From positions 1 through 64,000 of the forward strand of contig CALWEQ010000005.1 in assembly GCA_944377365.1 (NCBI GenBank): a DNA stretch of 64,000 bases. The letters run 5' to 3'. A program made the translations under genes and the position numbers. This DNA is from an uncultured Clostridia bacterium (GTDB taxonomy: Bacteria; Bacillota; Clostridia; Christensenellales; UBA1242). Within the stretch, counting starts at the first letter, position 1; the number at the start of each line of letters is the position of its first letter. Positions 2,356 to 57,023 of the stretch are shown piece after piece. Under the pieces are notes generated by a model, which made no database searches, had not been told where the DNA came from, and worked only from the letters and a program-made list of their open reading frames with translations.

Positions 2356-3945
2356 TCAGGCTTTTAAAACTCTTGAACTATGACAAGTCAAATATATTAT
2401 TTGATATTTTTTTGATAATTCCGTTGTTAAATCGATGGCATTCTTTAATGTAGCGTCATCAAGGTTGACAAAAGGGTCGTCAAGTACAATAAATGGTTTG
2501 ACGTCTGTAAAAACACTTTCTACAAGTGCAAACCGTTTGCAAATCTCCACCAAATCTTTTGATCCTTGGCTTAAAAATTGTTTTTCCATCAATCCTATTG
2601 GCGTGTCCAATTTGATGTTAAAATCAAAATCTATTTGCATGTGCATGTTTTTATTCGATAAAACTGAAAGCATCTCGACTAATTTTTTTTGCATCGGCTC
2701 AACAAATCTAACAGAAATGTTCTGTTTTGCTTTTAAAATAAAATCTTTAACTAGCAAAAGCAAAGAGACTTTCTCTTCTAATTCTTTTTTTTGTTTGATA
2801 GCAAAATTTAAGTTGTTTTCTACTACTTCCACTTCATTTATATAACGCAAAATCTGTTCGTTTATATATGCTAATCGTTCTTCTAAAACAGCGATCTCTT
2901 TCTCTAAATCAGACCTTTGCTTAACAAATTCTGCATCTGCCTGTTCGAAGTGCAACTTTTGTTTAAGCGAAGAAATCTCATTTTCAAGTTCATCTTTTTT
3001 ATCAAAATGCTTACGTGTTTTAAAAATAAAAATCAAGCTTAAAATGATTAAAATTACACTAATCGCCCCAAAAACTGAACAAAGTATAACATTTGAATAA
3101 CTTAATCCACACGCAACAGCAAAAGCAATAAACAAGGCAAAAAATATCGCACTTAAAATTTTATTTCCCTTCGGCTTAGCACTATGACTTTGCTTTGTTA
3201 TTTTGTCATCTGTTTTAATTGTTTCATTATGACTACGATAATTAACATTATGTTTTAAAGAATTCAACTTTTCTTCACGAACTGAAATTCCCTCGGCGAT
3301 TATTTTTTTATTTTCTTCAAGTTCACGCAATTTCTCATTTAATGCTTCTTTTTTGTTTTGCACTTGATTTATTTCGATCATCGAAGGAATTTGATTTTTT
3401 AAATTTTTAATGCTTTTATCCAATTTGCCTATTGCCCCTTCACTTGCTTGCATATCAGCATTTAAACCATTTGCTCCGGTCAAAAACGCTCTAACTTCAT
3501 CATTGATTTCGCCTTCCAACTCTCCTTGTCCAAAGAATGTTGTCAAAGAAAATGTATCGCTTCCAACGCCAAAAATTTCTTCACCTAATCTAATCGAAAA
3601 ATCTCTGCTTATTGACCCAGATTTAACGTCAACAAGCTCAAATCTATCCCCTTCTGGCGTTTGAGAAAATGTTCGAAGAACCTTATAAACCTTGTCGTTG
3701 TGTTCAAAAATTATGCTACCACCATAAACGCCACCTTGCCAAGGCGCAAACCTTGACCTTTCTGCCACATAAGCTTTGAGCCTTCCTCGTTTCTCCATAC
3801 CATAAAACATAGCCTTTAAAAAACAAGCAAATGTCGTTTTTCCCCAACCGTTAGCTTGATTGATAATGTTTATTCCATCTTGAAAAACATAATCAAAATT
3901 TGACAATTTTCCAAAATTTTCTATATGTAAACTGAGGAGCTTCAC
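2356..3945 (-). CDS. SbcC/YhaN-like ATPase with two membrane helices
   Basis: An SMC/Rad50-type ATPase expected to act with the nuclease encoded just upstream in DNA end processing. The start is a GTG at 3945: it has AGGAGGTGG five bases upstream and overlaps the partner's stop as GTGA, giving 529 residues. Walker A-like QANGWGKTT lies at 30-38, with Gln where the first Gly usually sits. Coiled coils flank two adjacent membrane helices at about 263-309. The ABC signature LSQG is at 458-461 and Walker B IVLDDP at 486-491, with a D-loop following. It is about half the size of classical SbcC or YhaN. Sequence shows the ATPase; the membrane location and repair role are inferred. Confidence 0.8.
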   Translation of the reverse strand: MKLLSLHIENFGKLSNFDYVFQDGINIINQANGWGKTTFACFLKAMFYGMEKRGRLKAYVAERSRFAPWQGGVYGGSIIFEHNDKVYKVLRTFSQTPEGDRFELVDVKSGSISRDFSIRLGEEIFGVGSDTFSLTTFFGQGELEGEINDEVRAFLTGANGLNADMQASEGAIGKLDKSIKNLKNQIPSMIEINQVQNKKEALNEKLRELEENKKIIAEGISVREEKLNSLKHNVNYRSHNETIKTDDKITKQSHSAKPKGNKILSAIFFALFIAFAVACGLSYSNVILCSVFGAISVILIILSLIFIFKTRKHFDKKDELENEISSLKQKLHFEQADAEFVKQRSDLEKEIAVLEERLAYINEQILRYINEVEVVENNLNFAIKQKKELEEKVSLLLLVKDFILKAKQNISVRFVEPMQKKLVEMLSVLSNKNMHMQIDFDFNIKLDTPIGLMEKQFLSQGSKDLVEICKRFALVESVFTDVKPFIVLDDPFVNLDDATLKNAIDLTTELSKKYQIIYLTCHSSRVLKA

Positions 3946-5009
3946 AATTCCACCTCCTCTCCACGCAATGCAGAAATGCCAATTTTTATGCATAGATTCT
4001 TTTGACTTTCGGCTAATTTTGAATTTAAAATTAAATTTATCATTTCAGCTTTAAGCGAAAGTGTTTCTTTGCGATATTTTTCAATATCAATTCTTATCTT
4101 GCTCTCGTCCAATAATTCAAAATAAAAGAAACTATCAGCAAATTTTGATTTCAAAAGATCAATTTTTTTATCAAAATCTTCATCACATTCCCCTTTAAGA
4201 ATTATCCTAACAAAATTTTTTTTATCAATATCCTTTGTTTTAATCATAATTTCACTTTCTAGTTGCTTAAAAGAGCTTATATTATCTAAAAATATTTCTT
4301 CTTCAACAAATTCTCGTAAAACTTTAAAATCTTTACGCTCCCAACTTATTTTCCCATCTTGAATGTGCATAAGCACAAATCCTCGCTTGTGATCACCAAA
4401 ACCATATTTCCCACCATTACCAGAGTAAACCCATTCACCTCTATTATCTATCTTACCATTTAACCTCATGTGTATATGCCCCAAAGCAAGATAATCGATA
4501 TTCTTGTTTTTTACATCTTTTAAATCTAAATTTACCACTTCACCAGATTTAGAAGAGGTCAGATTTGCATGCAACATCATAATGTTAAATTTTTCTTCTT
4601 CAAAATCGATGATTAGCTTATTTTCGCTATTTTTTTGCAAGCTTGCTCCACCTATTACCACATCACCCAACTGATATTTTTGAAAATATGTAGGAAAAAC
4701 AATAAGATTCTTTGGAAGATTTTCTTCAAACAACAATTCATGGTCATGATTTCCTAAACAATAAAAAAACGTGATGCCTTCCGCTGAATTTATCTCATCA
4801 GTTATAAATTTAAAAGTGGATTTACGAACCGACATCTTATCGAAAAGATCTCCACATATTAAAACTGCAGACACCCCATTTTCTTTTGCAAAATTTACTA
4901 GCTCGGAAAAAAGCTGTAGCGATTCATCACGCAAAATACGATTTTTGTCGTTACCCACCAAATTATAACCGCCATCTAAATGAAGATCAGAAACATGAAT
5001 TATTTTCAT
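3942..5009 (-). CDS. SbcD/YhaO-like metallophosphoesterase (DNA exonuclease subunit)
   Basis: A 355-residue calcineurin-like phosphoesterase. Metal-binding motifs are D8-x-H10, G53-D54-LF-D57, G86-NHD, an H in MLH at 145-147 and GHIH at 177-180, with YSGNGGKYGFGD in place of the YPGS-type motif of SbcD. It is the likely nuclease partner of the downstream ATPase, with translational coupling through a 4-base overlap. The C-terminal 120 residues are Lys-rich and probably form the capping and partner-binding region. It has no Shine-Dalgarno site; a TATAAT ends six bases before the ATG, suggesting a leaderless transcript. The pair could equally be called YhaO-YhaN. Confidence 0.85.
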   Translation of the reverse strand: MKIIHVSDLHLDGGYNLVGNDKNRILRDESLQLFSELVNFAKENGVSAVLICGDLFDKMSVRKSTFKFITDEINSAEGITFFYCLGNHDHELLFEENLPKNLIVFPTYFQKYQLGDVVIGGASLQKNSENKLIIDFEEEKFNIMMLHANLTSSKSGEVVNLDLKDVKNKNIDYLALGHIHMRLNGKIDNRGEWVYSGNGGKYGFGDHKRGFVLMHIQDGKISWERKDFKVLREFVEEEIFLDNISSFKQLESEIMIKTKDIDKKNFVRIILKGECDEDFDKKIDLLKSKFADSFFYFELLDESKIRIDIEKYRKETLSLKAEMINLILNSKLAESQKNLCIKIGISALRGEEVEL

Positions 5010-56480: not shown

Positions 56481-56530
56481 CTGCAAATAAAAAAAACTCG
56501 GACAAACCGAGCAAAAGCTGGGGTGGCAGG
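56481..56530 (-). repeat. tRNA-Gln flank repeat, distal copy
   Basis: About 50 bases that repeat the junction at 56634-56681. On the minus strand it reads CCTGCCACCCCAGC (the tRNA-Gln 3' end), four bases, then the terminator CTCGG..CCGAG with T8 (56489-56512) and ATTTGCAG. The rest of the tRNA is absent. Confidence 0.8.
56489..56512 (-). terminator. Second-copy terminator (tRNA-Gln)
   Basis: Minus strand stem CTCGG / CCGAG with a 5-base loop and T8. It follows the orphan tRNA-Gln 3' end. Confidence 0.75.
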
Positions 56531-56640
56531 GTCGACGCGTTAAGAAAACTTGCCTGTGTGCAAGTTTTTAGCCAAAGACGGGAATAAACTCGCTTTATTC
56601 CCCGCCCGAAGGGGTGAACCGTAGGTTCAAATCCTGCAAA
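56531..56640. other. Hairpin-rich insert between duplicated tRNA-Gln ends
   Basis: On the minus strand, immediately after the tRNA terminator, there is an 18-base exact inverted copy of the tRNA T arm (CGTAGGTTCAAATCCTGC on the plus strand, 56620-56637). Two hairpins follow: GGGAATAAA / TTTATTCCC and AAAACTTGC / GCAAGTTTT. No open reading frame is credible here. Confidence 0.75.
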
Positions 56641-56664
56641 TAAAAAAACTCGGACAAACCGAGT
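56641..56664 (-). terminator. Terminator of the tRNA operon
   Basis: Minus strand stem CTCGG / CCGAG with a 5-base loop and T7, directly after tRNA-Gln(TTG). Confidence 0.85.
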
Positions 56665-56665
56665 A

Positions 56666-56740
56666 TGGCTGGGGTGGCAGGATTTGAACCTACGAATGCA
56701 AGAGTCAAAGTCTTGTGCCTTACCACTTGGCGACACCCCA
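56666..56740 (-). tRNA. tRNA-Gln (TTG)
   Basis: 75 bases with encoded CCA. Acceptor TGGGGTG / CACCCCA, anticodon stem CAAGA/TCTTG with loop CTTTGAC (TTG). It reads CAA. Last tRNA of the minus-strand operon. The T arm and the 3' end are copied downstream. Confidence 0.95.
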
Positions 56741-56759
56741 TCAATTTAATTTAAAGTAA

Positions 56760-56947
56760 AAAGTCAATTTTGATCGCCACGACGTTATCTATGAGCAAAA
56801 GGTCCGGAGGAGATTTTGCGAATGGCCAAATCTCACGCACGCTCCCTTGCTCGAGATTTCGACCGGGACGTTCCGGGTTCGTCCGCAGGATGCGGAGCAA
56901 AGTTTGAAAAACTTTGCAAGCACCGGGTGGGCAAAATGCCATGCATT
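56760..56947. other. Spacer with inverted copy of the tRNA-Lys 3' end
   Basis: On the minus strand, directly after tRNA-Lys, AAATGC-ATG-GCATTT and then TGCCCACCCGG can pair with the tRNA's own GGGTGGGC acceptor strand. A further hairpin GCAAAGTTT / AACTTTGC and a second T-arm-like CGAACCCGG occur. No gene is seen. Confidence 0.65.
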
Positions 56948-57023
56948 TGGTGGCCCACCCGGGGCTCGAACCCGGGACCCCTTGATTAAAAGTCAAGTGC
57001 TCTACCGACTGAGCTAGTGGACC
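56948..57023 (-). tRNA. tRNA-Lys (TTT)
   Basis: 76 bases with encoded CCA. Acceptor GGTCCAC / GTGGGCC with a G-T pair, anticodon loop CTTTTAA (TTT), T arm CCGGG TTCGAGC CCCGG. Followed by an inverted copy of its 3' end. Confidence 0.95.

Follow-up and report, generated by a model that had tools for sequence, protein, structure and literature searches.

Why should several tRNA genes of one small bacterial genome be accompanied by copies, some inverted and some direct, of their own ends? The question arises from the first 64 kb of contig C5 (hereafter the window), part of an 852-kb genome in 10 contigs (G000) from an uncultured gut bacterium of the Clostridia. A preliminary description had noted an inverted copy of the T arm or acceptor after the Leu, Gly, Gln and Lys tRNAs, and such a copy was found at all four. 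Across the whole window, direct repeats of at least 16 bp at a spacing of 60-400 are confined to the Leu, Gly, Gln and Lys tRNA loci, and the single inverted repeat of at least 14 bp at a gap of 30-300 is also located at these tRNAs.

The tRNA loci of the window

The first array follows tRNA-Leu(TAA) and has these features:

1-134, + strand: 5'-side repeat, leader plus 5' part of tRNA-Leu, with the GGGGTCCCC hairpin in the D loop
172-257, + strand: tRNA-Leu(TAA), host gene of the array (ARAGORN)
258-288, + strand: intrinsic terminator, hairpin and T run, between tRNA-Leu and the first unit (from the sequence)
301-311, + strand: inverted copy GGGACTTGAAC of the tRNA-Leu T arm (reverse complement of nt 63-73), the 5' side of closing stem P1
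312-399, + strand: core H2, with P2 hairpin GGGCGG..CCGCCC, CGGCGTGATAGC, P3 and GCGGAG (covariance model R1)
400-420, + strand: direct copy of the tRNA-Leu 3' end from T-loop C56 to CCA, exact at 21/21 nt
421-462, + strand: terminator spacer, copy 2
463-517, + strand: second inverted copy (463-473) and truncated H2 core, with no direct copy after it

The second group lies at tRNA-Gly(GCC):

2045-2120, + strand: tRNA-Gly(GCC), host gene (ARAGORN)
2176-2191, + strand: inverted copy of the tRNA-Gly T arm with one mismatch and one indel (from the sequence)
2221-2240, + strand: degenerate direct copy of the tRNA-Gly 3' end, GGTTCGA...CTCCA (from the sequence)
2248-2333, + strand: truncated second unit, 86 bp identical to 2127-2212

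The remaining two tRNA genes are near the other end of the window, on the minus strand:

56948-57023, - strand: tRNA-Lys(TTT), host gene (ARAGORN)
56923-56932, - strand: inverted copy of the tRNA-Lys acceptor/T-stem 3' strand, in a decayed unit without a direct copy
56873-56881, - strand: second short inverted piece of tRNA-Lys (CGAACCCGG)
56666-56740, - strand: tRNA-Gln(TTG), host gene (ARAGORN)
56642-56665, - strand: terminator between tRNA-Gln and its unit
56620-56637, - strand: inverted copy of the tRNA-Gln T arm (reverse complement of nt 47-64), perfect over 18 nt
56531-56619, - strand: core H4, of which a reversed copy lies upstream of tRNA-Lys(CTT) in the same genome
56517-56530, - strand: direct copy of the tRNA-Gln 3' end, 14 nt, CCA lost
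56490-56511, - strand: terminator, copy 2

The periods are 162-163 at Leu(TAA), 121 bp at Gly(GCC), where the repeat is perfect over 86 bp, and 152-153 at Gln(TTG), in agreement with the unit lengths of 163, 121 and 153 given in the preliminary description. Its sequence of an insert followed by a direct 3'-end copy holds at Leu and Gln, each with a second terminator, and does not hold well at Gly, where the direct copy is degenerate; a good direct copy is missing in some units, namely those of the window's Gly and Lys genes and parts of G131 and G203. The motif GCAAGTTTTCT, reported as common to the Leu and Gln inserts, is present in both, and it is weaker evidence than it seemed, the two inserts belonging to different core families.

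Two neighbouring observations belong here. Tandem 134-bp repeats of the leader plus tRNA-Leu 5' part, with the D-loop hairpin, occupy positions 1-171 of the window and also the end of contig C3 (L081), and the two contigs are probably neighbours separated by this repeat. Adjoining the Gly array, at 2356-5009, are genes that from their ORF translations resemble SbcC/SbcD, a DNA hairpin nuclease; their position is probably due to chance.

A layout rule on both sides of the gene

The units are non-coding, measure about 75-290 bp and follow one order: the gene, a spacer or terminator, an inverted arm copy, a hairpin core, and a direct copy to the mature tRNA end. The direct copy begins inside the tRNA gene and normally ends exactly at CCA. 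Around that starting position the tRNA sequence reappears, reverse-complemented, as the inverted copy. Of 47 flank copies, 31 have an inverted copy across the start, as do 28 of the 32 whose inverted-copy score is at least 10. T-arm starts are seen at Leu, Gln, Glu, Ser, Lys and Arg, anticodon-arm starts at Thr and D-loop starts at Leu; 26 of 39 start points lie in or at loops, against an expected 38% (p 0.0002).

The preliminary description had confined the copies to tRNA 3' ends, a restriction that has to be given up. Mirror-image units stand upstream of tRNA-Ser(GGA) in G016, G023 and G005, of tRNA-Arg(TCG) in G000 and G021, and of tRNA-Lys(CTT) in G000 and G413, and further units lie behind tmRNA. 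In the 5' units the order is a direct copy of the 5' part, beginning at about nucleotide 1, then the core on the opposite strand, the inverted copy, the leader and the tRNA. The polarity from inverted copy through core to direct copy is therefore fixed to the unit, not to transcription.

Own-end copies occur in the flanks of roughly 10-26% of tRNA genes in five genomes of the order, far above mismatched controls. In G000, a direct copy of at least 11 nt lies within 400 nt of 10 of the 38 tRNAs and an inverted copy at 8 of 38, compared with 11 direct and 25 inverted copies among 1342 tRNA/flank pairs when the flanks of other isotypes in the same genome served as control; the tRNA-specific layout first described at several loci is thus real and genome-wide. 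Direct copies of at least 11 nt were counted at 8/37 tRNAs in G016, 8/41 in G021 and 7/35 in G023 (same genus) and at 3/28 in G029 (another family). The search of related genomes for own-arm copies, suggested at the outset, turned up own inverted copies in all four of these relatives, at 4, 3, 5 and 2 tRNAs, respectively. Because the clostridial genomes are probably metagenome assemblies, which break at such repeats, the unit numbers are lower bounds.

Core families and their hosts

The inserts sort into several recurrent core families: H1, H2, H4, and others at Asn/Gly/Met and at Lys. Core H1 consists of the GGGGTCCCC hairpin, GGAG, a stem and GACGCA, and H2 of GGGCGG..CCGCCC, CGGCGTGATAGC and GCGGAG. 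H4 is common to the Gln 3' unit and the Lys(CTT) 5' unit of G000, in opposite orientation.

An alignment of nine H2 units was made into covariance model R1. Compensatory change is seen at 12 of 33 pairs (doubly compensated), including closing stem P1, which is built from both tRNA copies. Searched with this model, whose E-values are rough, 59 of 396 genomes of the order, in 24 of its 142 genera, contain H2. Within the loci fetched, 72 of 99 matches are directly behind a tRNA (67) or a tmRNA (5), all on the same strand, and most of the remaining matches border a contig edge or follow a recognisable tRNA tail. The hosts comprise 21 tRNA species besides tmRNA, with arms tailored to each gene. The direct copy typically runs from C56 to A76 and is identical at 21/21 nt in 28 units; 29 of 45 first units sit behind a terminator.

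At one tmRNA host (L344, G381:C36) the inverted copy is complementary to about the last 24 nucleotides of the tmRNA, CCA included, and the core is a chimera of the H2 5' half and the GGGGTCCCC hairpin. Identity with a known Rfam RNA or ribozyme was considered and dropped, no match reaching the gathering score and the weak matches being those of chance. The same applies to weak matches to the Rfam tmRNA at unit loci, the real tmRNA hosts having been found separately.

The RtT repeats of E. coli

The repeats at E. coli tyrT have been recognised as an oddity for decades. They correct the preliminary description, whose author knew of no named family with this exact layout: the 178-bp repeats of tyrT/tyrV (RtT, RF00391, rttR) run, like the units described here, in the order inverted copy, core, direct copy. 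At tyrV of strain K-12, tRNA-Tyr is followed by a spacer, the inverted copy GGGGAAGGAT, the core and the direct copy AATCCTTCCCCCACCACCA (T loop to CCA), three in tandem, and the Rfam span of RtT takes in the stretch from inverted to direct copy. At tRNA-Pro (proK) the RtT core is kept with Pro-specific arms. Strains of E. coli have 0-4 units at tyrT, and the proK unit was matched over at least 80% of its length in 2635 of 5426 E. coli genomes (about half).

In E. coli as in Clostridia, then, tandem units behind a tRNA end in a copy of its own 3' end, an inverted T-arm copy stands ahead of the core (in E. coli at Tyr and Pro), unit number varies, and the core recurs at another tRNA with matching arms. 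The E. coli repeats differ in having another core sequence and in lying only 3' in the loci seen, whereas the clostridial units have several core families, D-loop and anticodon-loop starts, 5' mirror units and tmRNA hosts. The RF00391 covariance model, which scored 133-137 bits on the E. coli control, had no match at gathering score in the window or in the unit loci examined. Although RF00391 misses the clostridial units, RtT is a tested member of the architecture; since the tyrT and proK repeats obey the rule, the kind is already known. In E. coli, RtT RNA is set free from tRNA transcripts, and Actinobacillus homologues gave Northern signals (PMC4986893).

Probable spread of cores and copying of arms, and change in unit number

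When cores were compared using one unit per genome and tRNA, the nearest H2 core belonged 22 times to a different tRNA in its own genome and 6 times to the same tRNA in another genome, a within-genome similarity reached by 0 of 2000 genome-label shuffles. The Leu and Ser units of G023 illustrate this clustering, with cores identical in kind and arms that differ.

The arms follow the host. At positions where direct copy and tRNA mismatch, the inverted copy sides with the tRNA 19 times and with the direct copy 2 times, and the inverted arm beside a G023 Leu pseudogene perfectly mirrors the adjoining mutated T arm. Both observations fit arms that would be written from the local gene. A closing stem maintained purely by pairing between the two arms is contradicted by the same 19-to-2 division where the arms diverge. 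It was also considered that the inverted copy, complementary to the tRNA 3' end, might be a primer-binding site, a reading rejected on the ground that this copy usually ends before CCA.

Presence and absence were compared as the preliminary description had proposed, and whole units do differ in number, both between sister species and between E. coli strains. The sister species G413 (CALVOH01) has one extra H2 unit at Leu(CAA), placed exactly at the T loop / C56, in downstream sequence otherwise 99% identical, and has one unit fewer than G000 at Gly(GCC) (the window's second copy), at Met (77 bp) and at Val (151 bp); these differences are unpolarised, and loss through recombination between direct copies would look alike.

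At tRNA-Asn of G023 (L153), two downstream terminator copies differ by an inversion of the hairpin loop (GTGTC-GTTT-GACAC and GTGTC-AAAC-GGCAC), which is a template-switch signature. Template switching creates and maintains stems in other settings (PMC8794818).

Comparison with known systems

Islands targeted to tRNA and tmRNA genes, such as those in Islander, likewise leave a displaced tDNA fragment that starts in a loop and finishes at the gene end. Their known subsites are the anticodon loop, the T loop and the T/acceptor junction, and among the fragments of island-split tDNA the 3' ones are commoner than the 5' ones (PMC4383910). The units do have a tDNA fragment in the right order and orientation; they have no integrase inside, because at <300 bp they are too short for one, they carry no cargo and fall far below the >2 kb of an island, and they possess an inverted copy and a conserved core in addition.

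REP/REPIN and other small palindromic repeats are also short, non-coding, hairpin-forming, multi-copy and probably mobilised in trans. Unlike them, the units are bound to tRNA/tmRNA ends and have host-copied arms, and G000 has no Y1/RAYT transposase. Indeed, neither the Y1 transposase domain PF01797 (present in 4 of 25 relatives) nor the reverse transcriptase domain PF00078 (present in 8 of 25) has a match in G000, so a retroelement or Y1/REP mobility encoded by this genome was discarded. Three full-length tyrosine-recombinase ORFs are present in G000, none of them tied to units. Template-switch (quasipalindrome) mutations likewise yield reverse-complement copies of an adjacent stem, but alone they cannot bring a conserved core to another locus. 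To the attC of integron cassettes the arms bear a resemblance only.

What the units may be

We give about an even chance to the reading that these RtT-like tRNA-tail units are non-coding micro-elements which spread within one genome from one tRNA or tmRNA gene to another, changing in number by whole units. The copying mechanism that we infer would work as follows. The core would move to a new tRNA by recombination at a short shared block, from the T loop to the gene end, carried out by host homologous recombination or by a tyrosine recombinase acting in trans. The direct copy would be the displaced gene end left by this recombination, much as at tRNA-targeted islands; template switching during replication, with the neighbouring tRNA arm as template, would produce the inverted copy, and the arms would be re-templated at every host gene. 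We favour a non-autonomous element at the DNA level because polarity is fixed on either side of the gene, because there are mirror units and spread within genomes, and because whole units are gained or lost and most first units (29/45) stand behind a terminator. The original idea of tiny tRNA-targeting elements or template copying is to that extent upheld, through the common layout, the tRNA-specific copies and the species-specific presence. Against the micro-element reading stand the facts that no insertion event was caught in action, that no enzyme is tied to the units and that some units are without a good direct copy; sequence conservation in the core and covariation in the stems might, besides, reflect a function as RNA.

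Such a selected RNA role, as proposed for RtT, is the main rival, and we regard it as unlikely. The units would then be small structured RNAs that arise by processing of tRNA transcripts and are kept uniform through gene conversion, with P1 needing both arms. The conserved core, the 12 doubly compensated pairs including those of P1, the retained mature CCA end and the E. coli and Actinobacillus RNA data (PMC4986893) all speak for it, yet it has to contend with the 29 of 45 first units behind a terminator, with 5' unit cores on the strand opposite to the tRNA transcript, with inverted arms that track the tRNA and not the partner where P1 partners diverge, and with sister species that differ in presence. 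It is quite improbable, in our judgement, that the units are a mutation by-product of tRNA genes that stall replication, formed by tandem duplication and foldback template switching without movement between loci. Conserved cores common to 21 tRNA species and tmRNA across many families would go unexplained, as would the grouping of Leu and Ser cores by genome, even though every unit is quasi-palindromic, tandem copy number changes exactly, and G023 offers both the inverted terminator loop at tRNA-Asn and the Leu pseudogene whose mutated T arm has a perfect foldback copy. Least probable, and very much so, is that the direct copies are attachment-site debris, displaced tRNA ends from lost tyrosine-integrase islands. 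Like the fragments of island-split tDNA, of which the 3' kind is the commoner (PMC4383910), they do extend from the anticodon or T loop as far as the gene end, and the genome has its three full-length integrase ORFs; but neither an island nor an integrase separates gene from copy, the spacing is <300 nt, islands have neither inverted copies nor conserved cores, and the D-loop starts fall outside the three known subsites.

Returning to the micro-element reading, a wider form of it is possible, if somewhat doubtful: that the units are widespread, unrecognised micro-elements that insert on either side of tRNA and tmRNA genes and write direct and inverted copies of the host at each insertion, RtT being the first seen. 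If true, self-adapting arms would be a new mode of spread. The E. coli tyrT oddity becomes one case of a rule across many Clostridia genera, the tRNAs of most amino acids, and tmRNA. The units account for many partial tRNA copies, which annotation tools may wrongly take for tRNAs or for the ends of islands, and the covariance model allows units to be found elsewhere. A question is thereby made testable: do small structured elements travel from one RNA gene to another, re-copying their arms from each new host?

A dispersed hairpin and recombinase genes near tRNAs

The hairpin GGGGTCCCC(R)AAAAY..RTTTTTGGGG, with GGAG-stem..stem-GACGC frequently after it, forms a conserved structured repeat of dispersed occurrence (L173-L252; for example L193:3765, L210 and L187). 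It is absent from Rfam. Copies turn up in Clostridia, in Bacteroidales and here and there in other phyla, most of them away from tRNAs. As a tRNA-targeting signal it was rejected: 21 of 88 copies are within 400 nt of a tRNA, and the inverted-core-direct flanks are missing at most other copies.

Tyrosine-recombinase genes lie close to tRNAs at three places in G000: C10:3271-3780 at Ile(GAT), C7:60761-61336 at Arg(CCT) and C3:147076-147402 at Lys(CTT). Ordinary tRNA-targeted islands may thus also be present in this small genome.
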